Source of the DNA: Stenotrophobium rhamnosiphilum
Lineage (GTDB): Bacteria > Pseudomonadota > Gammaproteobacteria > Nevskiales > Nevskiaceae
Reading direction: 5' to 3'
Assembly (NCBI RefSeq): GCF_003052265.1
Contig: NZ_QANS01000002.1
Span: 620,001-684,000 of the forward strand
Length of the DNA: 64,000 nucleotides
The notes beneath the pieces are model-generated. The model did not search any database and was not told where the DNA came from. It saw only the letters and a program-made list of their open reading frames with translations. Shown here in pieces: positions 3,557 to 29,172 of this stretch (positions are counted from its first letter, which is position 1; every line of letters begins with the position of its first letter). The position numbers were made by a program, and so were the translations under genes.

Positions 3557-4855
3557 TCAGCCAACGACTTCCAGCAAGCCATGCTGCTTCAGATTTTTAA
3601 CCGCATCTAATAATTCCCACATTGGACAGTCGATAGTTTCAGCAATTGAAAGCAAATCCCGGCTGCCATCACAGTACGCAAGCATATGCATCATGTTCGC
3701 AACTGCTGCAGCTGACCCACGACTTGAGATTGTGGGATAGAGGCCGCGCTTGCCAAGCTGGGGCTCGCAAAGAACCGTTACCTTGAGCGTCTCATTGTTT
3801 TCCAGACAGGTCAGACACAATTGCAGTGCGTTCAAGGCACCGGCAAGCCCTGTCGGCGAAATCAGATCGAGATTGTCGAGGGAGGTGTGGTACTCAGGAT
3901 ATTGTCCATACTTGGATCGCATCACTGAGCAGACTGGCAAATCAACGCCAGGGGCGTTGTATTGCCGTTCATCGCTACCACGATCCAGATAGGTATACGA
4001 AATAAAATCCGGGGCAATGTGCTTGAGGACATGTTTGGCTGCTTTGTCAGCCACGGTCTTTCCATTGCGAGTTGGAAGAAATGAATAGCAGCGATCATCA
4101 CCCACGCAAGAAACATTGAAGCCTGCGATGGTTACCGGCTTCATGGCCGCAAGATTCTTGCTGAGATAAGTAATAGAGCCAATAGTCTCTGGAATAAAAA
4201 CAATGCGATACGAATAGCGTCGCTTGGTTTGCGTCAACCATTTCGCCAACCACGCTGTAACCACCGGCCCTGATAACTCGTTGTTCCCCATTGAAGGGTG
4301 ACAAACATAGCTGGAAACCAATATTTCCTGCTTACTCTCACCGGGAAGCAACAGTTCAGCGTAAGTGAGGGAGCCAGCCTCCAGGGAGCTGTCAATTACC
4401 GCGCGATATTGGCCAGGCTTTAATCCTTCACGCTGCCGGTGCGTCAAGCAAAAACCCCATCGCCGCTTGTAGTAGGAAGTGACATAAGGAATTGCGTCGG
4501 GCTGATCTGGCAATGAATACAAATGTTCCTGCAATTCATCCAGTGAAAGCTCAATATCTACCGGCTCTGAATATCCAACCACATGAAGATTGTGATCAGC
4601 AAAATCAACAACAACTTGACCATCAGGCCCAAGCAGACGCGCGCTGCGAATATTCCACTCCTCAGGAACCGTCCAATCAAATACTTGCGTTCCCGAAGGC
4701 ACCTCATGGAGTCTCAACCCTGGCAACTGCGCGCCGAGGGCAGCCAGGGTTTGCCGCACTCCATCTCCAGTGATACTGCGGCAGATTGGAAACAAGTCCC
4801 TGGCCAGTTGATACATCTCATTGCCGGAGTCTTTTGCAGAAGAAAAATTATTCAT
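3557..4855 (-). CDS. DUF4910 aminopeptidase-like protein of polysaccharide loci
   Basis: About 432 aa. It has a zinc-peptidase-like fold resembling M28, followed by a C-terminal winged-helix region (about residues 370-432, with SIAETIDCPMWELLDAVKNL). Likely metal-site residues are the CHP and NNELSG segments, the Glu of PETIG and the His of YHTSLDN. Such proteins recur in surface-glycan gene clusters; their substrate is not established to my knowledge. I chose the ATG at 4855 because it overlaps the end of the upstream MaoC-SDR-ACP gene by 8 nt, a sign of translational coupling. An upstream in-frame start exists at 4939. By context it may remove or edit an acyl or amide group made by the two genes before it; that is inference. 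Confidence 0.8.
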   Translation of the reverse strand: MNNFSSAKDSGNEMYQLARDLFPICRSITGDGVRQTLAALGAQLPGLRLHEVPSGTQVFDWTVPEEWNIRSARLLGPDGQVVVDFADHNLHVVGYSEPVDIELSLDELQEHLYSLPDQPDAIPYVTSYYKRRWGFCLTHRQREGLKPGQYRAVIDSSLEAGSLTYAELLLPGESKQEILVSSYVCHPSMGNNELSGPVVTAWLAKWLTQTKRRYSYRIVFIPETIGSITYLSKNLAAMKPVTIAGFNVSCVGDDRCYSFLPTRNGKTVADKAAKHVLKHIAPDFISYTYLDRGSDERQYNAPGVDLPVCSVMRSKYGQYPEYHTSLDNLDLISPTGLAGALNALQLCLTCLENNETLKVTVLCEPQLGKRGLYPTISSRGSAAAVANMMHMLAYCDGSRDLLSIAETIDCPMWELLDAVKNLKQHGLLEVVG

Positions 4856-6329
4856 TGGCTTTTCCAGCGTTGATTTTACTTCTGCACAATGCATCAAGGT
4901 CAGAGAATCGCTTGAGCAGGGCCATTTCCGAAGAAGCAAAATGAATCTTCAGCGATGATTCAATTGCCAGCAACAATTCAAGATGCTTGAGCGAGTCCCA
5001 ACCTGGTGTCACACCCAAAGCTGCATTTCCGACATCATAGTCGGCTGGAAGACGTAAAATTTCACGCACTATCGAATCAATAGACCCTTGCAATTCTTTT
5101 TGCTCTGCTTTGACAGATGCGCCCACATTTCCGGATGACACCTTCACCGCCATTACTGCCGCAGCAGTTGCATGAAAACCAACCCGCCCTCGCACAATCT
5201 TTCCTGGTTCGATAATCACCGTATTCTCTGAAACTTCACGGTCTCGCAAGACATCCAGCAAAGCCACGGCAACTTCCTGGGGCAAAAGCATGGCCTGATC
5301 GCCTCGAAAATCCTTTGAGAATTCCGTCAGCACCATGTCAGGCAAGATATTGAGCCCACGCACTCCATAGTTGGAAAAACTCCGGTCCATGCCATTTATC
5401 AAGTTGACTGCCATGCTTTTCGCACCAGAATAGGCTTCCCATCCGGGCAACGATACTTCGATGGACTTTGATCCAATGAACGCAACAGTCCCACTTTGTC
5501 TCGACAAAAACACCGGGGTTACGGCGCTGATAATTTCCTTTAGTGCGGAGAAATTTACAGAAATCAAATCTTCAACCGACGCCGTAACGCCCGGTGAAGC
5601 CGCATGCACGACCAGATCGAGAGCAGGAATTTTGCTCAACTCAGTGGCCAACTTCTCGCGGCCTTTCGCATTGGTCAAATCAGCATCGATGAACCGTACT
5701 TGCGCGTTTATTCGAGATAAATCCGCGATTAGTTGATCGCGATTAGCTGATACCCCGCGATCATGAATGAAAATTTGCCAACCTTCCTTTGCAAGGGACC
5801 AGGCGATCGCCCTGCCGATTTCACCGCTGCCCCCTGTAATAACAACCGATCTGCCGGTTGTGCTTCTTTGTATAGCCAGCGCGGATGGTGTGTGCCACTC
5901 CGCAACGCGCGCTTGAACTCGCAGGCGAGAATCAATCAATACCTGATTCCCGCGCAGAGCCAAAATCCGGATTGTCAAAATCCTGTGGCTCGCATTGATA
6001 GCTTCAATGCGAGCCGAGTAGCAAATGGCTTCACCAAAGAAAATCGGGTGAGGTGCTCGCACCTCTTGTCCAAGAATCAGTGATGGTTCACCTGGGAAAA
6101 TCATCCCGGCAATCATGGATAAAGGCAAAAGAGTTAATTGGAGTGGCGCTATGGTTTTGCCAAATTCCGTATCGCGAGCGTAATCCTGATCATAATGAAG
6201 CGGATTTTCATCGCCGCTTAACGTCCTAAAAAACTCTGCATCCTCGCAAGTAAAAACTCTTTCAAAAGAGACATAGTCTCCAACCTTAAAAGAATCGATC
6301 GAGAATGATAGGGGATGATTATTTTTCAT
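4848..6329 (-). CDS. Three-domain fusion: MaoC-like hydratase + short-chain dehydrogenase + acyl carrier protein
   Basis: A 493-aa protein with three readable domains. Residues 1-145 are a MaoC-type hot-dog domain (GDENPLHYD, with Asp40 and His45 at the hydratase site). Residues about 158-385 are a short-chain dehydrogenase/reductase (GGSGEIGR at 166-173, Tyr300 and Lys304 of YSGAK). Residues about 412-488 are an acyl carrier domain (PGWDSLKHLE, Ser446 as phosphopantetheine site). In known families these do enoyl hydration or dehydration, beta-keto reduction and carrier tethering, so the protein could form or process a 3-hydroxyacyl or related short acyl group on its own carrier. It starts 1 bp after the FkbH fusion stops and overlaps the DUF4910 gene, so the three form one cassette. 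The product chemistry is inferred. Confidence 0.85.
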   Translation of the reverse strand: MKNNHPLSFSIDSFKVGDYVSFERVFTCEDAEFFRTLSGDENPLHYDQDYARDTEFGKTIAPLQLTLLPLSMIAGMIFPGEPSLILGQEVRAPHPIFFGEAICYSARIEAINASHRILTIRILALRGNQVLIDSRLRVQARVAEWHTPSALAIQRSTTGRSVVITGGSGEIGRAIAWSLAKEGWQIFIHDRGVSANRDQLIADLSRINAQVRFIDADLTNAKGREKLATELSKIPALDLVVHAASPGVTASVEDLISVNFSALKEIISAVTPVFLSRQSGTVAFIGSKSIEVSLPGWEAYSGAKSMAVNLINGMDRSFSNYGVRGLNILPDMVLTEFSKDFRGDQAMLLPQEVAVALLDVLRDREVSENTVIIEPGKIVRGRVGFHATAAAVMAVKVSSGNVGASVKAEQKELQGSIDSIVREILRLPADYDVGNAALGVTPGWDSLKHLELLLAIESSLKIHFASSEMALLKRFSDLDALCRSKINAGKANE

Positions 6330-8819
6330 TTAGGTAGGCCCTGCACTCTGTTCAGTAAATCGATCAACAACCGTCAGCCACGAAGGAAAATTCGCCGAGC
6401 CATTTGCTGCCGATATCCATTCACCTTCAATTTGTCCTCGTTCAAAACCAGCATCAAGGAATACACTTCGAACGGGTGTATTTCTCTCGGTCTCGATAAT
6501 CAAACCTTTCAAGGTTTCCCAGCCGCGTTTAGCTGAACGCGCAATAGCCCATTGCAGCACAGCCGTCTCAAGGCCTCGGCCCAGAACGCGACAAGACAAG
6601 AGATAGCTATCTACAAATCCGCATTTATCATGTTCCGAGTCTCGCTGCAGGATGAGCAAGCCAATATTTTCAAACTCGTTGAACCGATCTTCCGATCCTA
6701 GAACAACGACGTCACCACCATCAGCAACAATCTTGCAAAGATTACTTTGGTCATGGCGCCGCGTAGTAGTATTGAACTGATTTGTTTTTTGGCATAACTG
6801 CGCAGCCCGGGCCATGTTTCCATCGTTTAAACCTTGGAAATAAAGCTTGAGCCCCAAGCTTTCGTAGAAATCATTAAGATTGGCCGATGATGACTTGTGC
6901 TGATTGAGTGCTTGCCTTTTCTTGTAACTCTGCACTCTCTTCATATCTTCAGCAGTCACGCTAGCCGCTGATAGCCAGGGCGAAGTCAACAGAGCCTGCA
7001 CATACATTGCAGGATCAACAGGAAGATCCAGTATCTTGACCTCCGGTAAATTGCGCCGCACGCCCTCGCGCTCTACTGGATTGTCATCAACAAACAAGAC
7101 TGAACCCAATCCAATATTCAATTCTTCGCAAATCTGGCTTATGCCTATCCATTTTGGCTGCCAATTAATACGATGGGCAAGCAAATTTTCAGATCGAATT
7201 TGCATCGCCGGCAAGGCGTCGATGGCTTTAAGCGCAAGATCCTCATCATTCTTGCTGCAAACTGCGAGGCCAATTCCACGCTCCGAAAGACATTTCAAAC
7301 TACGTTGGAAGGCCAAGAAGGCGTTACCTGGATAATCGCCACCAATATGGACCCCTGCAAAGCCATCCTCACCTAGCACCCCACCCCACAAGGTATTATC
7401 CAGATCGAGGACGATGAGCCTTGCAGATTTACCCAGTATCGTATTGATCAGTCCCAACCATCGCTTCGCGAGTTGCGAGGCGAAACGCTCTGAAAATGGG
7501 AAACGGCCGAGATACCAGAGTCTAGTATCTGTAACTGGCCCGACGCTGCATGCGGCCTCAGCCGCAATATCGACCCAAAGCACTTGCGCCAGCCCAGCTA
7601 GACGTTGCCCAAGGCGCGCATTCAACTGACTAATCAGGTCTGCGGCCATGCGGCCATCACTTTCTGCCGCCAGATACCCCAGAACTGCAAAGCGGTGCAC
7701 GACTATCCAGTTACCGTTGGACTGATGGTAAGCGGAAATAAGCTCAGCATATTGGTCTACCAATTGGCCAAGCATATCGTGAGACATGCCATCCAAAGTC
7801 GGCTGCCCAGCCAAATCTTCTACACGGTCACAGAAAAATGAAACCTGTGGTTTGAATCCATGAAGTGGAGATTCAGTGTCCAGCAAGCTTTGCCTCAGTT
7901 GACCGTAGGGCACGGCATAGATTTCGACGTTCCGGTCAAGAAGAAATTTCTTGCAATCAGAAGCCAGGGCCGTCTCCAGCATATGAACATTGGAACTACC
8001 TAGCAGCGCGATGCGTACCACCGGCTGACGAAGCATCTGCGAAGAATTAGCCAGGGCGTGAACAACGTCTGCACGATTTGTAACAAACGCATAAGGGTCA
8101 GCGGCAACCATGGAAGTGCAGACCCTGGCAAGATCAAAGGCGCTAACAGCTTCCACGCGACCACGCCATAGCACACCCGACCGCACTGCCCCTTCTTCTC
8201 TCAATCGCCCGATAGCGGGCATAAAGTCATTAATTGGATTGGCTTCCAATTTCCTGACGAACATATCAGCCGACACACTGCGCTCGCCATGACCATCTCC
8301 AAGGTCCGCTCGGCCTGAAAAAGTTTTGAAATACCGATATGGCACCTTGGCCATTTCTTCATAACGATGAAACTGGGTGCAATATTCCCAACCACATCCA
8401 AGCATGACAATGACTGCGTCCTCGCTCTCAAAAAGCGCAAACGGCGAATCGTCGCCAAAGGTAGTAGAGGCCGCACATGCGCCAATTCTTTGGGCTGCGG
8501 GCCCCGCAACAGTAAAAGAATAAATAGGATGAGGAGTGCGTATAGCCGTTGGATTAGCCTTCAAAAGCCAATCGGCGAGCACTCCAACCTCTGATGGACT
8601 GTCCTGACATTGATACGGGCGCCCGCCACAAAAACTGAAAGTGAACGCGGGCAAGGCGATTGTCCATCCTTCCTTGATCAGGCATTCCAAACCATAGAGG
8701 AATTCCCAGCACTCAAAGCTGGCAGGCGGCGCCAGACTGGCAATAGACGAATGAATAACCGCTACACGCGGCGTCCCACTCAGCACGCTCCGCAATGCAT
8801 CTAATATTTGTTGGCGCAT
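6330..8819 (-). CDS. Fusion of AAC(3)-like N-acyltransferase with FkbH-type HAD acyl-carrier loading enzyme
   Basis: An 829-aa fusion. Residues about 1-255 resemble the aminoglycoside 3-N-acetyltransferase family (VIHSS near 22-25, TPHPIYSF near 95-102, FGDDSPF near 121-127). Residues about 268-829 are FkbH-like: an SGNH-like front part, then a HAD-IIIC domain with Asp472 and Asp474 in LDLDNTLWGG, then a C-terminal GNAT-like part (NEFENIGLLIL). FkbH proteins load a glyceryl unit from 1,3-bisphosphoglycerate onto an ACP. AAC(3)-like domains transfer acyl groups to amino sugars. Together with the ACP fusion downstream this suggests a loading and transfer pair that acylates an amino sugar of the glycan, possibly the nonulosonate. 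The start is supported by AAGGA about 8 nt upstream. Domain calls are firm; the glyceryl substrate is inference. Confidence 0.85.
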   Translation of the reverse strand: MRQQILDALRSVLSGTPRVAVIHSSIASLAPPASFECWEFLYGLECLIKEGWTIALPAFTFSFCGGRPYQCQDSPSEVGVLADWLLKANPTAIRTPHPIYSFTVAGPAAQRIGACAASTTFGDDSPFALFESEDAVIVMLGCGWEYCTQFHRYEEMAKVPYRYFKTFSGRADLGDGHGERSVSADMFVRKLEANPINDFMPAIGRLREEGAVRSGVLWRGRVEAVSAFDLARVCTSMVAADPYAFVTNRADVVHALANSSQMLRQPVVRIALLGSSNVHMLETALASDCKKFLLDRNVEIYAVPYGQLRQSLLDTESPLHGFKPQVSFFCDRVEDLAGQPTLDGMSHDMLGQLVDQYAELISAYHQSNGNWIVVHRFAVLGYLAAESDGRMAADLISQLNARLGQRLAGLAQVLWVDIAAEAACSVGPVTDTRLWYLGRFPFSERFASQLAKRWLGLINTILGKSARLIVLDLDNTLWGGVLGEDGFAGVHIGGDYPGNAFLAFQRSLKCLSERGIGLAVCSKNDEDLALKAIDALPAMQIRSENLLAHRINWQPKWIGISQICEELNIGLGSVLFVDDNPVEREGVRRNLPEVKILDLPVDPAMYVQALLTSPWLSAASVTAEDMKRVQSYKKRQALNQHKSSSANLNDFYESLGLKLYFQGLNDGNMARAAQLCQKTNQFNTTTRRHDQSNLCKIVADGGDVVVLGSEDRFNEFENIGLLILQRDSEHDKCGFVDSYLLSCRVLGRGLETAVLQWAIARSAKRGWETLKGLIIETERNTPVRSVFLDAGFERGQIEGEWISAANGSANFPSWLTVVDRFTEQSAGPT

Positions 8820-9024: not shown

Positions 9025-10992
9025 TCACCGGTTTATCGACACCTTATTCAAGGCCTGATCAATAAGCGGGCGAAGCAAGTTTGCGCCCAATCTAGTCAAA
9101 TGATTGTCGTCAAAATATAACGGCATTCCGGAATGCATGGCATAGCATTGCTGCAAGTCACAAAGATACTTTGAAGGATCCAGCAGCGTCAGACTTTGAG
9201 CTGAACTCACAAGCGCATTCGAAAATATGTCGCGTACAACAGCATTTCTTTCCAGATACATCTCTGGAGATAGCCGCGGAGGCTCTCGACCTAAAAATAC
9301 ATATCGTGGCAGGTCAGGATTGGAAAAAAGCTGTTCTGGAACAGGCTCGATAATGACAAGTTTTTTCCCTGGGAGCTTTTCAATGGTTCGCTGCAATCCG
9401 CGCCTGAACGTTCTCTCATTTTCTGCGACAGACGTTTCCCGCGATAAGTCGTCCAAGTAGTACCGGGTTCTTTCACCCAATCGATATCCAGTCGCGTATT
9501 CCGACCATTCAGATGCCATCAAAACTAAAACTTGATCTGATGATGCAGCGATTTGATCATAATAAGCCTTCACGATTTCCGTGCAATCGCTCTTGATGTA
9601 AGACACGACTCCGTATAGGGGTACACATCGATTTGCGCTGAAAAATACTCCCTTCAATCCTCTGGATCGGAGCGCTTCATCAAACACCTCGTAAAGCATC
9701 GCGGCATGGCTATCGCCGACGAGCGCAACCGTAGTTTTTTCCGCATTTAGATTGCCTAGCAAACATGCGTGGCCCGCTTCGATTTTCTTGACCGAAACTC
9801 CCTTGTTGCAGCCATGTGCGTTAACCCGGAGGTCAGCGTACGGGAAATTCAACGCGTTTACTTCATCCGAAAATCTTCCCCTCCAGCCATCCGAGAGATA
9901 AGCAGATAATCCAACGATTAAAGCGCAGCCCATGCATGAAAGAGCAGAGATGAATAGGGCCCTGCGCTTCATCCCAGGCTGTTTCTTTCTGAAGGGGGCC
10001 TCGATAAATCGCCAGGAGATGGTTGCAATGAGGGCAGAGAGGCCAATTAGCACGATTGCTCCCCAAGTCGGCAATGGATCTATATTCAGATATTTGGCAA
10101 ATACAATCAGAGGCCAATGCCAAAGGTAAAGCGAGTACGAAATCAAACCGATGAGCACCAATGGCCGACTGGCCAAAAGCCGATTTATTGCTGGCTGGGT
10201 TTCAGCGCCAGCATGGATAATCAGTCCAGCTCCAATGCATGGCAACAGCGCATACGCACCCGGGAATGGGGTCTGATCTGTCAGAGCTACCGTACACCAT
10301 GCAATCATTCCGAAACCCAGCAAGCTCGCTACCTCGCGTAGAGCCTGACCAGTTATCGGAGGAACTATCGAAAGCGCAATCATGGAACCCAGCAATAACT
10401 CCCATACGCGCGTTGGCGCAAGGAAGAATGCCGCCGTCGGATAGTGCTGTACAGAAAAAATATTCAGAAGCAAGGAAACAAGCAAAAGCGGGAGGATATA
10501 CAAGGCCCAACGGCTTTTCCCCCACTTATAAATGCCCCAGAGCAATAACGGTAAGAAAATATAAAATTGTTCTTCAACCGCTAACGACCAAGTATGAAGC
10601 AATGGCTTCATCTCAGCTGGGCCATCAAAATAGCCTGCTTGGGTCCAGAAAAGAATATTGGACGAAAACAGTGTTGTTGCAATAACGCTTTGTCCAAACT
10701 CCTTAAAATATGCAGGAGTAAAAATTACACTCGCAACAACAATAGTAAAAAGCAAAACTCCAAACAGTGCAGGGAAAATGCGACGAATTCTACGCTCATA
10801 GAAAGATGCAATAGAAAAGCGACCCGAATGCAAGTCATTCAGCAATATGGACGTTATCAGATACCCTGATATAACAAAAAAAACGTCAACTCCAACATAC
10901 CCACCACTGAACGCATCAATGCCAGCGTGAAATAGTACTACCGGCAAAATAGCTACTGCGCGTAAACCATCAACATCTGCACGATAACGCAT
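9025..10992 (-). CDS. OafA/YrhL-type O-acyltransferase (acyltransferase 3 + SGNH)
   Basis: About 655 aa. It begins with the typical YRADVDGLRAVAIL start of the acyltransferase-3 family and has about ten hydrophobic membrane segments to residue 360. A periplasmic SGNH domain follows, with block I Ser in VGDSHAAM and the C-terminal Asp/His of DDNHLTRLG. Such proteins carry acetyl or other short acyl groups across the inner membrane and put them on O-antigen or EPS sugars. I chose the ATG at 10992, which has AAGGG 8 nt upstream; an in-frame ATG at 11028 lacks this. It is followed after 205 bp by the AAC(3)-FkbH gene. It is the first gene of that minus-strand run, facing away from the beta-helix gene. 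Confidence 0.9.
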   Translation of the reverse strand: MRYRADVDGLRAVAILPVVLFHAGIDAFSGGYVGVDVFFVISGYLITSILLNDLHSGRFSIASFYERRIRRIFPALFGVLLFTIVVASVIFTPAYFKEFGQSVIATTLFSSNILFWTQAGYFDGPAEMKPLLHTWSLAVEEQFYIFLPLLLWGIYKWGKSRWALYILPLLLVSLLLNIFSVQHYPTAAFFLAPTRVWELLLGSMIALSIVPPITGQALREVASLLGFGMIAWCTVALTDQTPFPGAYALLPCIGAGLIIHAGAETQPAINRLLASRPLVLIGLISYSLYLWHWPLIVFAKYLNIDPLPTWGAIVLIGLSALIATISWRFIEAPFRKKQPGMKRRALFISALSCMGCALIVGLSAYLSDGWRGRFSDEVNALNFPYADLRVNAHGCNKGVSVKKIEAGHACLLGNLNAEKTTVALVGDSHAAMLYEVFDEALRSRGLKGVFFSANRCVPLYGVVSYIKSDCTEIVKAYYDQIAASSDQVLVLMASEWSEYATGYRLGERTRYYLDDLSRETSVAENERTFRRGLQRTIEKLPGKKLVIIEPVPEQLFSNPDLPRYVFLGREPPRLSPEMYLERNAVVRDIFSNALVSSAQSLTLLDPSKYLCDLQQCYAMHSGMPLYFDDNHLTRLGANLLRPLIDQALNKVSINR

Positions 10993-11407
10993 AGAAATAC
11001 CCTTATTTCGCGTTTCTGAGTTAGGCATTTCTATAGTTTGACTTCTTGAAATACCAGCAAGCTACCCACGATTTATTTTAATTAAAAGCGGCAGTATAAA
11101 AAACATTAAATTGCAATAATCGATGCGATTTATTCAATATTGCTGAACACTTGAGAATTCCTACTATATGCTGGCCAAACTCAAATAAATAGTTTGCGAA
11201 TCTAGCATTCCCCTGGGGCTCCTGAAAGGTCTCGTGCGGGGACACACCTCACGAGTCGGCATCTCTTCACACTTGAGTGCGAAGCTCCCCAAGCAATTGC
11301 TGGAATAAAGCGCACATAGTTTGCGACAAGCAGCTAGATTAAGGCACTCGTATCTATAGCCTCGTCACTCACCACGGTTTTGGATTCGACGCAATCCAGA
11401 GAAGGCC
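10993..11407. promoter_or_regulatory. Divergent intergenic region between the OafA-like gene and the beta-helix gene
   Basis: A 415-bp stretch with no gene. The part next to the acyltransferase is AT-rich. An 11-bp direct repeat ATAGTTTGCGA occurs at 11189-11199 and 11316-11326, and a small inverted repeat CTCGTG/CACGAG lies near 11232-11256. It probably holds promoters for both directions; no clear -35/-10 pair was found. Confidence 0.4.
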
Positions 11408-15155: not shown

Positions 15156-15913
15156 TTTGGAATCTTCCTATAAACCCGTTCGCACAACCCAGCATCAGCA
15201 AGCGACTGGAGATCGGCGCGCGATTCAGGGGAAGCAGGGCGTGGCAACTTGCGGATCGCCGCGGAAACATAGAGCCCCGGCTCATCCAGGTCACGAGCAA
15301 CGGTGGTACCCGCACCGACAATGACGCCGTTACCGATGCGAACGCCCATGCTGATGATGCACCCAGCACCGATGTAAACATTGTCACCAATGAACACTTT
15401 TCCATCGATCCGATAGCGGCCAGGACCCGAAGTATCGTGAACGTACCCATGCGTCCAGACCTGACAACCCACACCAGCAATCGTCGAGTAATCGCCGATG
15501 CTGATGCTAGTGGTGCAATCGATTCGATGCCCGCCAGTAATCTTGGCCACGCGACCCAAATAAAGGCGCGAAGGCCCGCTAGTCACCAAACCCTGCCGTC
15601 CTCGCACGATCTTATTTGCGTTACCGATCGCACCTTGTGGCGCCAGATCAATGGAAATCGGGCCGAGAACCACATTCTGGCGACCGATGTACGCGCGCTC
15701 CCGCAGCACCAAGCGCTTGACCACCAACAGGTTCAGATGCCCGACTCGCGTGTGCTGATCAAGACAGATTTTATCCACCCACAGCAGGGAGAACCCGATG
15801 CGAGCGGACGCCGCGACACGATGCCCTAGCAAACGTAAAACGGGCCGCAGGAAGAACGAAGGCAGCAGCACGGCAGCCAAAGCCGTAAGGAGTTTTTTTG
15901 GAGACTTTCGCAT
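15140..15913 (-). CDS. Left-handed beta-helix (hexapeptide) acyltransferase
   Basis: About 257 aa. After a hydrophobic N-terminal stretch the protein shows hexapeptide repeats, especially from about residue 170 (VFIGDNVYIGAGCIISMGVRI), with a likely catalytic His in WTHGYVHDT. It is of the LbH/WbbJ-like O- or N-acetyltransferase type and would modify a sugar of the repeat unit. I chose the ATG at 15913 because it overlaps the stop of the dioxygenase gene as TGATG, a coupled arrangement; an upstream in-frame start exists at 15943. The C-terminus overlaps the wzx start. Confidence 0.8.
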   Translation of the reverse strand: MRKSPKKLLTALAAVLLPSFFLRPVLRLLGHRVAASARIGFSLLWVDKICLDQHTRVGHLNLLVVKRLVLRERAYIGRQNVVLGPISIDLAPQGAIGNANKIVRGRQGLVTSGPSRLYLGRVAKITGGHRIDCTTSISIGDYSTIAGVGCQVWTHGYVHDTSGPGRYRIDGKVFIGDNVYIGAGCIISMGVRIGNGVIVGAGTTVARDLDEPGLYVSAAIRKLPRPASPESRADLQSLADAGLCERVYRKIPKCQEQ

Positions 15914-16842
15914 CACTGGCAAAAGTAAAAACGATTGATCCAAGGATCAACCTTGATACCGGGAGCATACTCACCAAGCTCCCTCAAGGTCGCCACAGGT
16001 TTTCCAGGGCCATATGGCAGCGAGTACATGCTGTAAACCGCTTGGAACATCAGTCGTCTGCCCTGTTTCACTGGCTGCCCCTTGTGAATGCCAAACGTGT
16101 CCTCAAGAAACGCCTGGCCGGGATGCCCAGTCAGGCATTTAATGTTCTCGATCCCAAACACGCTCTCAACTTCCTGGTCTGTAAACCGGCGAATCTCACG
16201 TAATTTTTCGCTTTCAACAGAATTCGTCACATACTTGTGCGGGCCATTGTCGGGACCAACATCGCTCAAGCATACGAACAGCTTTAAAAACCGCCAGTCA
16301 TCGACATCGCGGTGAAAGTTTTCCGCTTGCTGGGCGCCTATTTCCGTAGGATAGCTCCACCACACTGCAAGATAAGCCAGCGTGGGTTTGCATCCCAAGT
16401 ATCGACCTGCAATATCAAGGATTTCCGGATCGTTTGCGACGGCCAGCAGTCTTGGCGCCAAAACGATGTCCCGGGCCTGATGATGTGCCACATGACTCAA
16501 GGGGTGTCGACGTTCGCTATCCGGCAGGAAACTCCCGTTTTCGGGACGGTAGGCGTCCCGTACTTCATGCCGCAGGAAATACTCCATCAGGGCATCGCAA
16601 TCTTCCGCGCTCAGCATGTCACGCAGCCTGACCAATCCCGAAGTGAGCAACGCCTGTAGAGCCTGACCAACATTTGGCGAAATCTCTGCCTTCAAAGCAT
16701 GCGGCGGCCGGAAACGCGCCATTAAACGAGTAACCGCCCGGCGGCTGACGGGGCCAATAACGCTCCTTTGCAGATAGAAACGCCACCATCGAAAATCCCG
16801 CCACACGAGGCGCAGATGCCGCATTTTTGAGGATAGGCTCAT
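15913..16842 (-). CDS. Phytanoyl-CoA dioxygenase (PhyH) family Fe(II)/2-oxoglutarate oxygenase
   Basis: About 309 aa. The metal-binding triad of PhyH oxygenases appears as the His and Asp of FHRDVDDW and a distal His in FGIHKGQP, with an Arg (RRLMFQ) that would hold 2-oxoglutarate. Members hydroxylate small molecules. Inside a polysaccharide operon, coupled to an acetyltransferase, it may hydroxylate a sugar or an acyl substituent; that is inference. The ATG at 16842 is preferred over 16878, though its ribosome site is weak. Such genes are occasional in glycan clusters and usually of unknown substrate. Confidence 0.8.
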   Translation of the reverse strand: MSLSSKMRHLRLVWRDFRWWRFYLQRSVIGPVSRRAVTRLMARFRPPHALKAEISPNVGQALQALLTSGLVRLRDMLSAEDCDALMEYFLRHEVRDAYRPENGSFLPDSERRHPLSHVAHHQARDIVLAPRLLAVANDPEILDIAGRYLGCKPTLAYLAVWWSYPTEIGAQQAENFHRDVDDWRFLKLFVCLSDVGPDNGPHKYVTNSVESEKLREIRRFTDQEVESVFGIENIKCLTGHPGQAFLEDTFGIHKGQPVKQGRRLMFQAVYSMYSLPYGPGKPVATLRELGEYAPGIKVDPWINRFYFCQ

Positions 16843-16965
16843 GCCACTATTACTCTGTGCACATTTTCCCCACAGCACACTTTACTTTTTCCATATTTAC
16901 TCGTTCAGTCATGTCGCTGCACCTTCAAGACAAACAGAATGCCACCAGCATCAGAAGCGATATCG

Positions 16966-20266: not shown

Positions 20267-21310
20267 TCAAGCGAGCAAATCCCAATTCAGAGGGGTGCCT
20301 TTTTTTACATCGCGATTTAGCGACTTGCCCAGAAGTAATTCATAGAACTTTGGCGGCAACCCGCCCCCTGGCCTGATACAACGAAGGTTATCGACGGTTA
20401 AAGGCTCCCCCTTCTTAACATCCTCGGAAATGTACATCGACCTGCGGAACTGGAGTGATTTTTTCTCGGCATCAGTCGGGCCATAGCTGATTTGCCCCAG
20501 TGACAACGCAGCTCGTTCAGTTTCAACAACCAGGGCCGTCAACTCCTCTGGTTCCAACGAAAAAGCAGAGTCCACACCGCCATCGGCCCGATTTAGAGTG
20601 AAATGTTTTTCGATGACGCTAGCACCGAGTGCAACACTCGCAACCGCCACACCGATACCCATCGTGTGATCTGACAATCCAACCTCGCAACCAAAAAGTT
20701 GGCGAAGATGAGGGATCGTAATGATATTGGTATTTGCTGCTGCCGCAGGATAAGTGCTGGTGCACTTCAGCAGGATGATATCGCTTGCACCTGCTCCCCT
20801 CGCAGAGTCCACCGCGTCCTGAATTTCACCAATTGTTGCCATCCCGGTCGAAATGATGAGCGGTTTCCTAGTGGCTGCGCATTTTCGAATCAGCGGCAAA
20901 TCAAGAATCTCGAAAGACGCGATCTTGTAAACCGGCACATCAAGTGTCTCAAGGAAATCCACTGCTGTAGCATCAAACGGAGAACTGAATCCGATCATGC
21001 CAAGCTCACGGCAACGATCAAAGATTGGCTTGTGCCATTCCCACGGGGTATATGCCTGCTTGTACAAATCAAAAAGCGAAGTGCCCTGCCATAGACTATC
21101 TTTATCCTTGATAAAGAATTCACCCTCGGCAAGGTCAAGAGTCATGGTTTCTGCGGTATAGGTCTGTATCTTGAGGGCATGTGCACCAGCCTTGGCCGCC
21201 GAATCCACAATCTCAATTGCACGCTCTAGGGACTGGTTATGATTCCCAGACATTTCCGCAATAACAAAGGGCTTATTGCCTGCTGAAACAACAAAATTTC
21301 CAATCTTCAT
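20267..21310 (-). CDS. pseI: Pseudaminic acid synthase
   Basis: A 347-aa NeuB-family enzyme, which condenses phosphoenolpyruvate with a 2,4-diacetamido-trideoxyhexose to form a nine-carbon acid. The N-terminal TIM-barrel (IAEMSGNHNQSLERAIEIV, about residues 18-36, and GLSDHTMGIGVAVAS) is followed by a C-terminal SAF/antifreeze-like domain (about residues 285-347, RRSMYISEDVKKGE). The EMSGNHN segment is the form usually seen in PseI rather than in sialic acid synthases. The start overlaps the pseG stop by 4 nt (ATGA), and a transferase follows. Confidence 0.92.
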   Translation of the reverse strand: MKIGNFVVSAGNKPFVIAEMSGNHNQSLERAIEIVDSAAKAGAHALKIQTYTAETMTLDLAEGEFFIKDKDSLWQGTSLFDLYKQAYTPWEWHKPIFDRCRELGMIGFSSPFDATAVDFLETLDVPVYKIASFEILDLPLIRKCAATRKPLIISTGMATIGEIQDAVDSARGAGASDIILLKCTSTYPAAAANTNIITIPHLRQLFGCEVGLSDHTMGIGVAVASVALGASVIEKHFTLNRADGGVDSAFSLEPEELTALVVETERAALSLGQISYGPTDAEKKSLQFRRSMYISEDVKKGEPLTVDNLRCIRPGGGLPPKFYELLLGKSLNRDVKKGTPLNWDLLA

Positions 21311-22812
21311 AATTCACACCGGTATTCGTATTGATATTCGCTGTAGCCAGCTTCAGTAAATGCCGCAACTGAGGGCGTATTGTCTACATGTATCTTGGCA
21401 ATGATCCAACGGAGCTTCGGGTATTCAGCAGTAAGCCAGCGCTGCCCGGCTCGCAACAATAGAGGGCCATAACCCTTACTAAGCTCGGTTGGGACCAGAT
21501 ATATAGAGACAGTTGTCTCTGTGGACATCAGGTCATCAAATCTAAGCACTCCGATAGCTCGACCATCTATTTCGCCAATCAGAAGTGCCCTGTTGGGATC
21601 TGAGAGCAGGGCTAAAAACCAGCGCTCGTGATCAACTCGTTGGATTTCCTGGCCATTACCCGAATAGCGCCGGACTTCTGGACTATTACGCCATTCATAG
21701 GTCGCCAATGCATCAGCTGCCGTGGCTCGGCGCAACGATATTCCCTCACCAAGCATGTGCAGCGCCACACGCTTTGCACCCTTACCATCAACGATACGGC
21801 CTGAATGATCCGATAACGCGTACAAGAGCTCTGGACAATGCAACGCCGTACTGATGATGTGGCTAAGTGTCTCGACAGTCACATCCTGACTACGTCCGAG
21901 GTAAAGAATAGCGCCTGTCTTGGCAAGGTCTTCCGAAATCTTCTCTTGATTTTCAGCAATAGAGATCACAATGCTCGGCAACCTAAGGGCAGATCGCTCC
22001 CAAGTGGTAGTGCCTCCAGCACCAATACTCAAATCTGCATTCCAGAAAATATTGGCTATCTGGTCTGTCTGGCAATGAAATCGCATGCGCACATCGGCAG
22101 CGCACCTAGAAGCAATTTGATCGCGATGTAAATTAGATGCGCCGACAATCACATCGACTTCAATATCTTCCAGCCCTACCAAATTCAAAGCATCGAGTGC
22201 TTTGGTAGTTTCATTGCTTGCGTCTGAGCCACCGAATGAAATTACAATCTTTCGTGCACCCTTACAAACAGATTTTTCGAGCTTTCGTAGAGCTGAAAAT
22301 TCATCCCGCAACAGTGCATACCTAGGCCCTAAAAGCTGCCTACATTTAGCCGGCAGCAAACCTTGATAGCGGCGCTCAATCGTCTGAAAGAAATTCTGAT
22401 CCAACAAAATATCGGCATCATGTTTGCGATCCGCGAGATCATCAATAACCATGATCTGCCCAGCCGAAATTCGCAGAGCCTGCTCCCAAGTTGCACTAAG
22501 TCCGTAATGGTCAACAATTAACCAATCCAGTTCGTAGCCAGCCTTCTTCAAAACATCAGCAGTTTGATTTGCGTCAATCTGCTCAGGAATCGAATTCCAT
22601 GACTCCGCAACATCATTCGGAGTCGGCAGCGCATGAACAACAAATCCCTGCGTCCGAAGCCAATTGACTAGATCGCCGGGAAGCTCACGACAAATAAATG
22701 AAAGCTCGACGCCTTGGTCCTGCTTGAGCAAAGCCTTGGCCAGAGTCGCACATCGCACTACATGTCCCGTTCCAATGGAGACTGAGGCGTCGACTCTTAT
22801 GGCAATGCGCAT
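21307..22812 (-). CDS. pseG: PseG-PseH fusion: UDP-sugar hydrolase plus GNAT acetyltransferase
   Basis: A 501-aa fusion. Residues 1-340 are PseG/SpsG-like, a GT-B-fold hydrolase that removes UDP from UDP-2,4-diacetamido-trideoxy-altrose (GTGHVVRC near 17-24, then IGAGGTTTWERSAL). Residues about 350-501 are a GNAT domain (LRRATAADALATYEWRN, then GYGPLLLRAG) like PseH, which N-acetylates C4 of the amino sugar. So two steps that flank each other in the pathway sit in one chain. It overlaps pseI by 4 nt. A second, separate GNAT lies at 24943-25539, so which one is the true PseH is open. Confidence 0.9.
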   Translation of the reverse strand: MRIAIRVDASVSIGTGHVVRCATLAKALLKQDQGVELSFICRELPGDLVNWLRTQGFVVHALPTPNDVAESWNSIPEQIDANQTADVLKKAGYELDWLIVDHYGLSATWEQALRISAGQIMVIDDLADRKHDADILLDQNFFQTIERRYQGLLPAKCRQLLGPRYALLRDEFSALRKLEKSVCKGARKIVISFGGSDASNETTKALDALNLVGLEDIEVDVIVGASNLHRDQIASRCAADVRMRFHCQTDQIANIFWNADLSIGAGGTTTWERSALRLPSIVISIAENQEKISEDLAKTGAILYLGRSQDVTVETLSHIISTALHCPELLYALSDHSGRIVDGKGAKRVALHMLGEGISLRRATAADALATYEWRNSPEVRRYSGNGQEIQRVDHERWFLALLSDPNRALLIGEIDGRAIGVLRFDDLMSTETTVSIYLVPTELSKGYGPLLLRAGQRWLTAEYPKLRWIIAKIHVDNTPSVAAFTEAGYSEYQYEYRCEL

Positions 22813-22821
22813 GTTGAAGAA

Positions 22822-24108
22822 TCAGCGTACGCGGAACAGCGGTTGAAGCGGAGAACAACGAAGCAACTCGCCCATCTGCTTTTCATCCACAGCCCGCTTC
22901 AAGATTGGCAAGATTTCATCGTAGGCACTAAGCAGCGCCGCAATTTCACTGTCACCGTGCGAATAACTAATGTTGTGGCTGCCAAGGGTCAGAATTCCGC
23001 GAGCAAACATTTCCTGAAGATAAAGTGTTTTGATTTCCCACGACGAGTAGCCGTTGGCATCATTGATCAGGAAGAAGCTCCATGTGGGATGACCCGCGGT
23101 CTTACCTATATGAGCAACTCCATGCTTATCAATCAGCGCATTCAGTCCTTGAAGTAATTTTGTTCCCTGCAAAAACATCTGCTCGACTACAGGTTCACGT
23201 TGCAATTTCTGCATGGTTGCAAGAGCGGCTACTAGAGATAGTGTCTCGCCGCCAAAAGTGAAAGAGAAAAAAATCTCTTCCATCAGTTGCATAACATCGG
23301 CACGCCCTGCCACAGCAGAAACCGGATATCCGTTCGCGAGCCCCTTGCCAAAAGTCGCCAGATCAGGCGTCACATTGAAATATTCTTGAGCGCCGCCATT
23401 GGCATAACGGAATCCGGTAATGGTTTCGTCAAACACCAATAGAGCGCCATAGCGATGCGCCAGCGTCTTTACACCTTCCAGGAATCCCTTGCTCGGCTCT
23501 ACTACGTTCATAGGCTCGAGAATTACCGCTGCGAATTGCTGCGGGTACTCAATTAATAGTTTTTCCAAACTTGCAAGATCGTTATAAACAAACGTGTGCG
23601 TCAGATCGCTAGTTGCCTTCGGCACGCCACGATTGCGTGCGGTACTGCCGATATACCAATCCTGCCAACCGTGGTAACCACAGACAGCCACTCGGTCGCG
23701 ACCGGTATAAGCACGCGCCAATCTGATTGCGCCAGCAGTCGCATCCGATCCATTTTTGCCAAAGCGGACTTTTTCAGCGCACGGCACCATCTCAATGATT
23801 TTTTCTGCAACCAATGTTTCGATCGGGTGCGGCAAGCTAAAAATCACGCCGTCTTGCAATTGCTTACTTACCGCAGAAGTAACGTCATCGTCGTTATAGC
23901 CCAATGTAACGGCAGCAAGGCTGTTAATGAAATCGATATATTCGTTTCCATCGGCGTCCCAACTACGACATCCCTTGGCACGCACCATGAAATAGGGCGA
24001 AACCCCCAATGGGTATTGAGTTTTGCTCTTGCTGAAAGTTTGCGATCCCAACGGCATCGCCGCTAGCGCGCGTGCGAGCAACTCTTCTGATTTCTTGTAT
24101 CTATTCAT
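22822..24108 (-). CDS. Class III aminotransferase of the glutamate-1-semialdehyde aminomutase type
   Basis: A 428-aa PLP enzyme. It shows the class III landmarks: FVRFGKNGSDATAGAIRLAR-like binding region near residue 110, the Asp of VFDETITGFR, and the PLP lysine in TFGKGLANG (about residue 265). The fold is that of HemL, but its place inside the nonulosonate operon, 9 bp from pseG, argues against tetrapyrrole synthesis. The canonical pseudaminate route needs only the DegT-type PseC, so this is an extra aminotransferase, probably for a variant amino-nonulosonate or another amino sugar. Substrate unknown. Confidence 0.85.
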   Translation of the reverse strand: MNRYKKSEELLARALAAMPLGSQTFSKSKTQYPLGVSPYFMVRAKGCRSWDADGNEYIDFINSLAAVTLGYNDDDVTSAVSKQLQDGVIFSLPHPIETLVAEKIIEMVPCAEKVRFGKNGSDATAGAIRLARAYTGRDRVAVCGYHGWQDWYIGSTARNRGVPKATSDLTHTFVYNDLASLEKLLIEYPQQFAAVILEPMNVVEPSKGFLEGVKTLAHRYGALLVFDETITGFRYANGGAQEYFNVTPDLATFGKGLANGYPVSAVAGRADVMQLMEEIFFSFTFGGETLSLVAALATMQKLQREPVVEQMFLQGTKLLQGLNALIDKHGVAHIGKTAGHPTWSFFLINDANGYSSWEIKTLYLQEMFARGILTLGSHNISYSHGDSEIAALLSAYDEILPILKRAVDEKQMGELLRCSPLQPLFRVR

Positions 24109-24190: not shown

Positions 24191-24946
24191 CTAAACTGCC
24201 TTGTCCTGAATGAGCGATTTTTTATAGCCCGCGTTGCGTTCAAAATCCGTGTTATGGGATTTCCAACGAGGATTCTGTTGTAGCCAATGCAGAATATCTT
24301 CAGTTGAGAAATCTGCTCTCAGTGGATACAACGCTTCATATATAGCGTTGACTAGTTCGAAGTCTTCCAATTCATCAACCGTCCACCTCAACTCCGAAAG
24401 ATCCTGAATTGAGCGGAACTCCCCAAGCTTGAATATCTGCGGATTCTTGTAGATGAAGGGCGTAACGTGCTCACGCTCTGAGACCATTTTGGCATTGGCA
24501 CCCGCTTCAACCAAAGCACTGTAACGGACTACCTCAACATCTAGGCCGTCAGGGAAACTCTGATTTAATGTGTTACTTGTATAGTCATTGCCATTACTCA
24601 GGTGCATCGAAATCACTTGGTCAATGATGTCTGGATCTGCAAGTGGGCAATCACCTGTTAGTCGCACTACATGCTCTGGAGCATAGGGCTCAGCAGCCTT
24701 GCAATAACGATCAAGTACGTCTGTCAGGCTACCTCTATAACAGTCAACGCCAAATTCAGCGCAGACCAGCGCCAACGGATCATCACTAGCTTCAGAACTA
24801 GTAGCTACAAGTAGTCGATCAATCTTCCGACTTCGACGCAGTCGCTCTATTTGGAGCATGAGCATCGGCTTACCCAAAATAGGGCGCAGCACCTTACCTG
24901 GCAATCGGGTTGAAGAAAGACGAGCTTGTAGAATCGCAAGAATCAT
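24191..24946 (-). CDS. pseF: SpsF/PseF-type nonulosonate cytidylyltransferase
   Basis: A 251-aa nucleotidyltransferase of the SpsF family. The N-terminus ILAILQARLSSTRLPGKVL is the nucleotide loop; RLTGDCPLADP holds the metal-binding Asp. In Pse-type clusters this protein would activate the sugar with CTP to give the CMP-form used by the transferase. It resembles SpsF of Bacillus spore coat clusters more than the NeuA-like PseF of Campylobacter. It overlaps the GNAT gene by 4 nt (ATGA), so they are translated together. Confidence 0.82.
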   Translation of the reverse strand: MILAILQARLSSTRLPGKVLRPILGKPMLMLQIERLRRSRKIDRLLVATSSEASDDPLALVCAEFGVDCYRGSLTDVLDRYCKAAEPYAPEHVVRLTGDCPLADPDIIDQVISMHLSNGNDYTSNTLNQSFPDGLDVEVVRYSALVEAGANAKMVSEREHVTPFIYKNPQIFKLGEFRSIQDLSELRWTVDELEDFELVNAIYEALYPLRADFSTEDILHWLQQNPRWKSHNTDFERNAGYKKSLIQDKAV

Positions 24947-25539
24947 TTGGGCTCTGGGCCATCAACAGTCTTTTGGACTGACGCCTCATCTTCACCGGTT
25001 GGCGAATATTCAGGGTTGAAGTAAGCCAAGCAAAGCTTGTCTAAGACTTTTCCGTTCCTTACGAGCTGACCCCGCAACGTACCTTCAAGTACCCAACCCG
25101 CCTTGAGGAGCATGAGCATAGACCCGTAGTGATCAGAATATGGGCCCGCACTGAACTTTCGGATTCCATACTCGGAAAATCCTACGCGCGTACTTAAAGC
25201 TGTGGCTTCAGACGCGTACCCTTTTCCCCAATACGCGCGATCACCAATGACTAGCGAGTAATCAGAGACGCCGTGCTTTCTAACTATTGGCCCAATCTTG
25301 ACGTTGCCGATATGCAAATCACCATCTCTAGTGCACAACGCATACATAAAATATGACTGCGTTGCTAAGCCCTCCTTAAGATGGCGTATTGAGTCTTCGC
25401 GGGTTAAATCTAGTACTTCAAGAAAGCGGGTGACTTCTGGATCTTTGAACCAAGACAGATAACGATCATTGCAATCGTCCTCAGTCAAAGGACGAATGTA
25501 GAGCCGCTCGCTATAGTGGTAATTTTGCATTTCAGTCAT
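24943..25539 (-). CDS. GNAT N-acetyltransferase of the RimJ/RimL type (second PseH-like enzyme)
   Basis: A 198-aa GNAT protein with YIRPLTEDDCNDRYLSWFKD at the start and the acetyl-CoA loop region near AYWGKGYASEATAL. It lies between the aldo/keto reductase and spsF in the nonulosonate operon. It could be the C4 N-acetyltransferase (PseH) or acetylate another position, as a second GNAT is fused to PseG. The overlap with spsF is 4 nt. Confidence 0.85.
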   Translation of the reverse strand: MTEMQNYHYSERLYIRPLTEDDCNDRYLSWFKDPEVTRFLEVLDLTREDSIRHLKEGLATQSYFMYALCTRDGDLHIGNVKIGPIVRKHGVSDYSLVIGDRAYWGKGYASEATALSTRVGFSEYGIRKFSAGPYSDHYGSMLMLLKAGWVLEGTLRGQLVRNGKVLDKLCLAYFNPEYSPTGEDEASVQKTVDGPEPK

Positions 25540-25576: not shown

Positions 25577-26442
25577 TCAAGCTTTTGCCGCCCATAACGA
25601 TGGGTCGACAAGTGCAAGATCGTCACTATTCAAATCTTTGAACGCAGAAGTGGGTAAAGGCTCCGCTCGGGTCGCAGTCAAAATCTCTTCTAACTGCTTG
25701 CAGCTCTCTACGCCAATCACAACTTGATCAACCTGCGGCAAGTCGAGCGCAAAACGCAAAGCAGCCTGCATAGGAGTCAACTTGAGATCGCGGCAGCGTG
25801 CTTGAAAACGCTCTAGAACATCACGATATTTTGCAAGATGCCCAACAAGTTCTGCAGGATTTCCGATGGCAAAACCTTGAAGAAATATGGATCGAGCATG
25901 CACCTCGATTCCGCGAGACTTACAAATCTCCAGCAGTCCACTATCGATATGACGAGTATCGAATACATTCAATGGCAGCTGAATTAGCTCGACTGGATAA
26001 CGTCGCAAAACCTCAAGCGCTTCAGTCGGGCCATAGGCCGAAAATCCGATGCGTTGTACGAATCCCCGCTCTCGCTGATCTTGTAATTTCTTCCAAATAT
26101 CGTCTGCATTGGGGCCGAGCAAGTCCGCCGCACGATGAAGCAGCAATCCATATACGCGCTGCACTCGTAACCGTCTCAGGCTCTCAGAAAAGAGTTCGGT
26201 CGCGCGGTTCGCCAGATCATCGTTCAATGCAGGCAACTTAGTAACAACGCGAAAACGACTTGCTGCGTCCAGCGATCCGAGCACTGATTCGCTGTTTCCA
26301 TAAGCATGCGCCGTATCAAGCAAATTTATGCCGGCTGCCTTGGCACGCTCCAAGATGTTGGCAGTCTCACTCTCAGTCACTTGACCATTGCGATTGAACG
26401 CGCCATAAGCGAGTCCAAACTGAACAGTGCCCAAAGCTAATT

Positions 26443-26446
<4 letters not shown>
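25577..26446 (-). CDS. Aldo/keto reductase of the nonulosonate operon
   Basis: A 289-aa aldo/keto reductase, an NADPH-dependent TIM barrel. The family signature appears as NLLDTAHAYGNSES (catalytic Tyr of AYG), with RVVTKLP for the Lys and LLLHRA for the His position. It overlaps pseC by 4 nt (ATGA), so it is firmly part of the operon. The six-step pseudaminate pathway does not need it, so it should act on an extra step, perhaps stereochemistry or oxidation state of a variant sugar. That role is inference. Confidence 0.88.

Positions 26447-29172
<2,726 letters not shown>

Follow-up and report, generated by a model that had tools for sequence, protein, structure and literature searches.

A putative acyl-exchange cassette joining FkbH, an acyl carrier, an N-acyltransferase and DUF4910 in a glycan locus of Stenotrophobium rhamnosiphilum

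Three adjoining genes of Stenotrophobium rhamnosiphilum probably constitute a cassette that exchanges the acyl group of an amino sugar, most likely pseudaminate. They lie in a 64,000-nucleotide stretch of contig NZ_QANS01000002.1 (positions 620,001 to 684,000), referred to here as the window, and encode FUS, a fusion of an AAC(3)-like N-acyltransferase with FkbH (6330..8819, minus strand, 829 aa); MSA, a protein composed of MaoC, SDR and acyl carrier protein (ACP) domains (4848..6329, minus strand, 493 aa); and a DUF4910/DUF2172/HTH_47 protein (3557..4855, minus strand, 432 aa from the ATG at 4855). In the proposed mechanism, the HAD/FkbH part of FUS would take D-1,3-bisphosphoglycerate, remove phosphate and load a glyceryl unit onto the phosphopantetheine of the MSA ACP. 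The MaoC and SDR domains of MSA would then convert the ACP-bound glyceryl, most plausibly through dehydration to pyruvyl and reduction to lactyl. The DUF4910 protein, which has a zinc-site hydrolase fold, would strip the GlcNAc-derived N-acetyl group at C5 of the nonulosonate and expose the amine, and the freed amine would then receive the ACP-bound C3 acyl group through the AAC(3) domain of FUS. The domains, active-site residues, gene coupling, recurrent linkage and FkbH-partner type of the ACP can be read from the sequence; from these we infer the order of steps, the acceptor in Stenotrophobium and the choice between glyceryl and lactyl, and the enzyme chemistry is predicted.

All three open reading frames (ORFs) are open on the minus strand and run end to end from 8819 to 3557. 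The FUS stop at 6330 is followed directly by the MSA ATG at 6329, leaving a gap of 0 nt, while the DUF4910 ATG at 4855 overlaps the MSA stop by 8 nt; this ATG, rather than the TTG at 4939, is most likely the start of the DUF4910 gene. The gap and overlap confirm the three coupled minus-strand genes described in an initial annotation of this DNA. Promoter and terminator searches gave no excess over shuffled sequences. A gene for an acyltransferase-3 plus SGNH protein of the O-acyltransferase type (9025-11028) lies about 205 bp upstream of the cassette on the same strand.

FUS comprises an AAC(3)-like N-acyltransferase domain (aa ~1-248), an SGNH-like domain (aa ~262-460), a HAD domain (aa ~467-620) and a GNAT-like domain (aa ~650-800). 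It matches Antibiotic_NAT PF02522 at 75.3 bits (cut-off 25) and the FkbH model TIGR01686 at 256.6 bits (cut-off 146.65). The AlphaFold (AF2) model of FUS, with a mean predicted local distance difference test score (pLDDT) of 85.6, matches in fold both AAC(3)-IVa/FrbF and the Bacteroides protein of PDB 3slr, which has a phosphatase domain of FkbH type. Specifically, aa 262-620 (SGNH-like plus HAD) match 3slr, and the AAC(3) domain matches 6mn3 by sequence as well as by structure (Foldseek E 8e-13). Residues T148/H151/E154, the HAD motifs DLDNTLWGG (as a motif type) and DDNP, and the KTNQFNTT and SCR motifs are invariant among FUS orthologs, as is C743 within LLSCR; H151 aligns with AAC(3)-IVa H154, the residue mutated in the solved H154A structures 6mn4/6mn5. 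The cysteine of the HAD segment AVCSKND was rejected as a glyceryl carrier, being replaced by Ala or Val in loci L006, L008, L009 and L145-L147. A role of the AAC(3) domain in antibiotic resistance was rejected as well, with 42.1 bits against a cut-off of 420 for AAC(3)-IV and 39.5 against 270 for AAC(3).

MSA is built from a MaoC dehydratase-like domain (aa ~8-148), an SDR domain (aa ~155-385), a linker and a C-terminal acyl carrier domain (aa ~410-485). It matches MaoC PF01575 (32.9 bits, cut-off 27) and SDR PF00106, and its AF2 model reaches a mean pLDDT of 85.0. Residues D40/N42/H45 of MaoC, Y300/K304 of the SDR and S446 of the ACP are invariant among 10 orthologs. The Pfam search returned no ACP match in the window's own MSA; PP-binding PF00550 is matched by 7 of the 10 orthologs at E<=1 (best 5e-4). 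All orthologs have the DSL serine, and WDSL occurs in 13/13 sequences compared. Moreover, the carrier region matches free-standing ACPs beside other FkbH genes. Among 70 other FkbH loci, in which neither a cassette-type AAC(3) nor DUF4910 was found, 44 have a small free-standing ACP within 400 bp downstream, and because the profile of the fused MSA carrier detects these ACPs, the fused carrier is assigned to the FkbH-partner type. Together, the domain searches, structure models and invariant active-site residues support the FkbH, AAC(3) and ACP assignments of the initial annotation.

The cassette recurs far beyond its host. When about 85,000 species genomes were scanned for the FUS-type fusion, nine further full-length or nearly full-length copies (L003-L011) appeared in Alphaproteobacteria, Planctomycetota, Prochlorococcus and Streptomyces, the hosts being a member of Rhizobiales, Rubripirellula, Loktanella, two Rhodobacteraceae, another alphaproteobacterium, a Streptomyces and two Prochlorococcus. 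A third Prochlorococcus copy (L012), cut by a contig end, is kept outside the nine. Within Pseudomonadota, the phylum of the window, 378 surveyed genomes add three more fusions (G1152, G1175 and G1098); among 41 genomes consisting of the host and 40 relatives, the full fusion is found in the host alone. MSA lies directly downstream of FUS in 11 of 12 loci. The exception is L009, from Prochlorococcus, where AAC(3), FkbH and ACP form a single 907-aa protein and the stretch read contains no MaoC or SDR match. DUF4910 is present in 10 of the 12 loci, being absent from L007 and L009; in L010 it stands apart from the FUS-MSA pair, beside NeuB. Gene order varies between FUS-MSA-DUF and DUF-FUS-MSA, with linkage retained. 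FUS identity among ten cassettes is 32-67%, and FUS and MSA divergence correlate (r=0.91), from which we read the cassette as an old unit moving between phyla. The recurrence of both fusion architectures and of their linkage at such identities over several phyla means that the cassette is not a product of chance; the co-occurrence that the initial annotation had proposed as a check is thus found.

Split forms confirm, at the level of gene content, the partnership of FkbH, ACP and AAC(3). For example, L138 carries FkbH, ACP, a MaoC-AAC(3) fusion and DUF4910, L148 carries ACP, FkbH, AAC(3) and MaoC-SDR, and L149 carries AAC(3), FkbH and ACP, the locus read giving no match to MaoC or SDR. The composition of L009 and L149 suggests that the core may work with FkbH, ACP and AAC(3) alone.

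The window DUF4910 protein has the PF16254, PF09940 and PF16221 architecture (342.7 bits), matches PDB 3k9t at E 4e-110, and belongs to the PETIGS/GSDERQ subtype (CHPSMGNNELSGP). A survey of DUF4910 proteins, covering the window's class, the order of L011, cyanobacteria and planctomycetes, separates two subtypes, PETIG/GSDER and PGTIG- or PATIG/GYDER. An AAC(3) or formyltransferase gene lies within 6.5 kb in 9 of 11 loci of the former and in 0 of 20 of the latter (Fisher p=2.7e-6, for genomes that are not fully independent). A tenth PETIG/GSDER locus, L124, has its AAC(3) at 6.8 kb, within a pseudaminate (Pse) operon. This link between the PETIG-type subtype and acyl- or formyltransferases is new in the present analysis, and it offers a rule for predicting unusual surface-sugar N-acyl groups from genomes. 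L121 illustrates a putative removal followed by reacylation: its genes run PseB-PseC-cytidylyltransferase-PseG-formyltransferase-PseI, with one formyltransferase in the place of PseH, followed by DUF4910 and a second, adjoining formyltransferase. The initial annotation had treated DUF4910 as a companion of the cassette; its membership stands, and the pattern of its partners suggests a further role in removing the old acyl group.

PETIG-type DUF4910 also occurs with AAC(3) and a nearby AMP-binding ligase gene in L119, L127, L130 and L137, the ligase being Pfam-confirmed in L119 and L137 and identified by eye in L127 and L130; in L137 the set adjoins repeated flagellin genes. These loci may represent a parallel acyl-exchange set that draws on a different donor. 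The PGTIG/GYDER proteins of L107-L118 and others mostly lie with glucose-1-phosphate cytidylyltransferase-like, epimerase and C-methyltransferase-like genes (identified by eye in the loci read), which may point to a separate role in branched sugars. Replacement of a zinc-ligand Asp by Asn was considered as a marker of FkbH cassettes and discarded, since L119-L121 share the Asn without FkbH, and 3k9t and L010 keep the Asp.

The acceptor of the cassette is most likely the pseudaminate predicted to be made at 20-28 kb of the window. Pseudaminate bears the acetyl group of GlcNAc on its C5 nitrogen and is acylated at C7 by PseH; a change of the C5 acyl group therefore needs its removal first. On the minus strand, the window encodes PseI, the pseudaminic acid synthase (20267..21310; TIGR03586, 495 bits against a cut-off of 340), a PseG hydrolase fused to a PseH-like GNAT (21307..22812; TIGR03590, 285 against 154), a CMP-nonulosonate cytidylyltransferase-like protein in the PseF position (24191..24946; PF02348), the PseC aminotransferase (26443..27597; TIGR03588, 567 against 424) and the PseB UDP-GlcNAc 4,6-dehydratase (27594..28685; TIGR03589, 540 against 408). 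The PseH-like domain scores 49 bits with TIGR03585, below the cut-off of 93, and the cytidylyltransferase-like protein has no PseF equivalog match at E<=1e-10. Of the loci with enough flank, most have Pse-type genes close to the cassette, namely the window, L003, L005, L006, L010 and L011; in all of these except L005, which has PseF/aldo-keto reductase-type genes, a NeuB-type synthase lies within about 15 kb. The NeuB evidence is confined to proximity at the locus level; NeuB presence per genome was set aside as too common (9/14 control genomes).

Additional genes accompany the Pse cluster. A second, free GNAT is encoded at 24943-25539, and a class III aminotransferase resembling glutamate-1-semialdehyde aminomutase (22822-24108) and an aldo/keto reductase (25577-26446) lie inside the cluster; a similar aminotransferase and aldo/keto reductase pair occurs in Aeromonas group I flagellin glycosylation islands (PMC7874193). 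A PhyH-type dioxygenase is encoded at 15913-16878 of the window's glycan locus.

For the identity of the transferred group, lactyl or a related reduced unit is the leading candidate at somewhat less than even probability, followed by plain glyceryl, with some other group the least favored of the three. The presence of MaoC and SDR domains on the same carrier suggests, on chemical grounds, conversion of glyceryl through pyruvyl to lactyl. Retention of MaoC and SDR catalytic residues in nearly all cassettes, together with a MaoC gene within 4 kb in 20 of the 70 other FkbH loci, indicates that these domains are probably used, and so counts against the rather unlikely alternative that MaoC-SDR leaves the C3 unit unchanged, so that the group transferred is plain D-glyceryl, matching the Campylobacter glycan prior to methylation. 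That alternative draws on the dependence of Campylobacter N-(di-O-methylglyceroyl)-pseudaminate on the DUF4910 protein Cj1295 and on the AAC(3), FkbH and ACP sets of L009 and L149. Improbable, by comparison, is a fatty-acid-type 3-hydroxyacyl product (e.g. 3-hydroxybutyryl), with MaoC as hydratase, SDR as ketoreductase and FkbH serving another purpose. MaoC and FabG-like relatives do use such substrates, and other flagellin glycosylation islands contain genes for acyl carriers and 3-oxoacyl-ACP reductases (PMC7874193). However, the cassette encodes neither a ketosynthase nor an acyl-ACP ligase, the transferase is joined to FkbH, which is the invariant member together with the ACP, and L009 lacks MaoC-SDR. 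For bryostatin, an FkbH-DH-KR route to lactyl was not found in the literature searched and is not used as evidence. The glyceryl or hydroxyacyl group of the initial annotation is supported for the predicted glyceryl start and amended at its end, where MaoC-SDR probably tailors the unit and the final group may be lactyl.

Several observations weigh against the acyl-exchange scheme. In L146 (1427-2908) the MaoC-SDR-ACP protein has lost the catalytic Asn and His of MaoC and is otherwise intact, with SDR and ACP kept; dehydration therefore cannot be universal, the MaoC step may be optional, and transfer of plain glyceryl gains some support. The DUF4910 family lacks the catalytic residues of M28 peptidases, with Asp and Glu replaced by Ser and Pro (PMC4000134). 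The window protein carries the same substitutions, in CHPS and PETIGS, and is by its residues not an M28 metallopeptidase; it also has Asn at the position of the 3k9t zinc ligand Asp195. Hydrolysis by DUF4910 is consequently not assured. It is conceivable, if on balance unlikely, that DUF4910 instead acts as a transacylase or supports the acyltransferase as a structural partner; the missing residues favor this, and the cyanobacterial locus L132, where AAC(3) and DUF4910 form one ORF, speaks for closeness of the two rather than for a particular chemistry. The pairing of DUF4910 with chemically different donors (FkbH-ACP, AMP-ligase neighbors and formyltransferase) fits a shared step such as freeing of the amine. 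The Pse genes lie 11 kb from the cassette with other genes between, and in Streptomyces sp. MspMP-M5 (L007, 4775-16140) the AAC(3)-FkbH and MaoC-SDR-ACP pair adjoins adenylation (AMP-binding) and condensation domains, in a cluster of nonribosomal peptide synthetase type that includes a nucleotidyltransferase-aminotransferase fusion and, in the stretch read, no DUF4910. The acceptor is therefore not always a nonulosonate, and the L007 product is possibly an N-glyceryl or N-lactyl natural product. That FkbH serves a lipid or natural-product pathway that has no relation to sugars, with the glycan neighborhood coincidental, is nevertheless very improbable, given the Pse-type genes near most cassettes with enough flank and the independent linkage of DUF4910 and AAC(3) to Pse operons in L121 and L124.

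Collectively, the acyl-exchange scheme retains most of what the initial annotation had outlined. FkbH loading, a dedicated ACP and AAC(3)-mediated N-acyl transfer to a nonulosonate are supported, at the level of prediction, by the conserved cassettes, the one-piece L009 protein, the PseB, PseC, PseG and PseI matches above cut-off and Campylobacter genetics; the nonulosonate acceptor agrees with the Pse genes of the window and, in view of L007, does not extend to every cassette. A broader proposal, which is tentative and somewhat doubtful, is that of a portable module in which MaoC and SDR make lactyl from glyceryl to be swapped for the acetyl of pseudaminate, with PETIG-type DUF4910 proteins acting as deacylases for exchanges to glyceryl, lactyl, formyl or other groups. 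Since donor enzyme, carrier, N-acyltransferase and DUF4910 are joined in one cassette, donor identity, deacylation and transfer become testable with three proteins.

Each part of the cassette has known relatives. FUS shares the fold, the catalytic His and the T-x-x-H-x-x-E motif with AAC(3)/Antibiotic_NAT enzymes (AAC(3)-IVa, FrbF and YokD); it differs from them in lying far below all AAC(3) resistance equivalog cut-offs, in its fusion to FkbH, and in its expected donor, which would be acyl-ACP rather than acetyl-CoA. FkbH yields glyceryl-ACP in known systems (PMC7489565), and the polyketide systems for tetronate and methoxymalonate (e.g. Mad7/Mad8, PMC7489565) likewise pair FkbH with a dedicated carrier and derive glyceryl from 1,3-bisphosphoglycerate. 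There the unit enters C-C/C-O bonds or methoxymalonyl extenders, whereas the AAC(3) fusion of FUS leads one to expect N-acylation. The Clostridium acetobutylicum region CA_C2186-CA_C2199 similarly combines DUF4910, a NeuB-type synthase, an ACP and a protein described as 'aminosugar N-acetyltransferase + HAD phosphatase' (PMC4000134), but its ACP is separate and no MaoC-SDR is listed. Das et al. took this neighborhood to suggest amino-sugar transacylation or deacylation, with no mention of FkbH or glyceryl loading (PMC4000134). The literature searched (FkbH with polysaccharide, lipopolysaccharide or pseudaminate) describes no FkbH glycan cassette, nor the combination of FkbH-AAC(3), carrier-MaoC-SDR and the DUF4910 subtype; the parts are known, and their combination is new with respect to that literature.

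The closest functional parallel, drawn from published descriptions of the genes, is flagellar glycosylation in Campylobacter. In C. jejuni NCTC 11168, the DUF4910 protein Cj1295 is needed for the N-(2,3-di-O-methylglyceroyl) group at pseudaminate C5, as established by knock-out and complementation, and its action according to the proposal of Hitchen et al. is cleavage of the acetamido group at C5 (PMC3068675). Strain 12664, in which the fkbH-domain gene cj1302 is a pseudogene, is without the di-O-methylglyceroyl group (PMC7099621); this evidence is correlative, since strain 12661 also lacks the group and differs in other genes (PMC7099621). The predicted link of cj1302 to the group is moreover contested, since a 2026 paper (PMC13317340) takes the view that Cj1296-Cj1310 have no part in flagellar glycosylation. 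Both systems have a DUF4910 protein, required in Campylobacter for an N-glyceroyl-type C5 group, and both have an fkbH-type gene, which in Campylobacter lies in the flagellar glycosylation locus. The Campylobacter genes are separate and the group is O-methylated, whereas the window joins AAC(3) to FkbH and has MaoC, SDR and ACP in one protein; no methyltransferase is encoded among the three cassette genes, the rest of the genome not having been searched for one. For the Campylobacter group, the literature searched has so far shown the involvement of one gene, and by analogy the cassette suggests an origin for the flagellar di-O-methylglyceroyl decoration.

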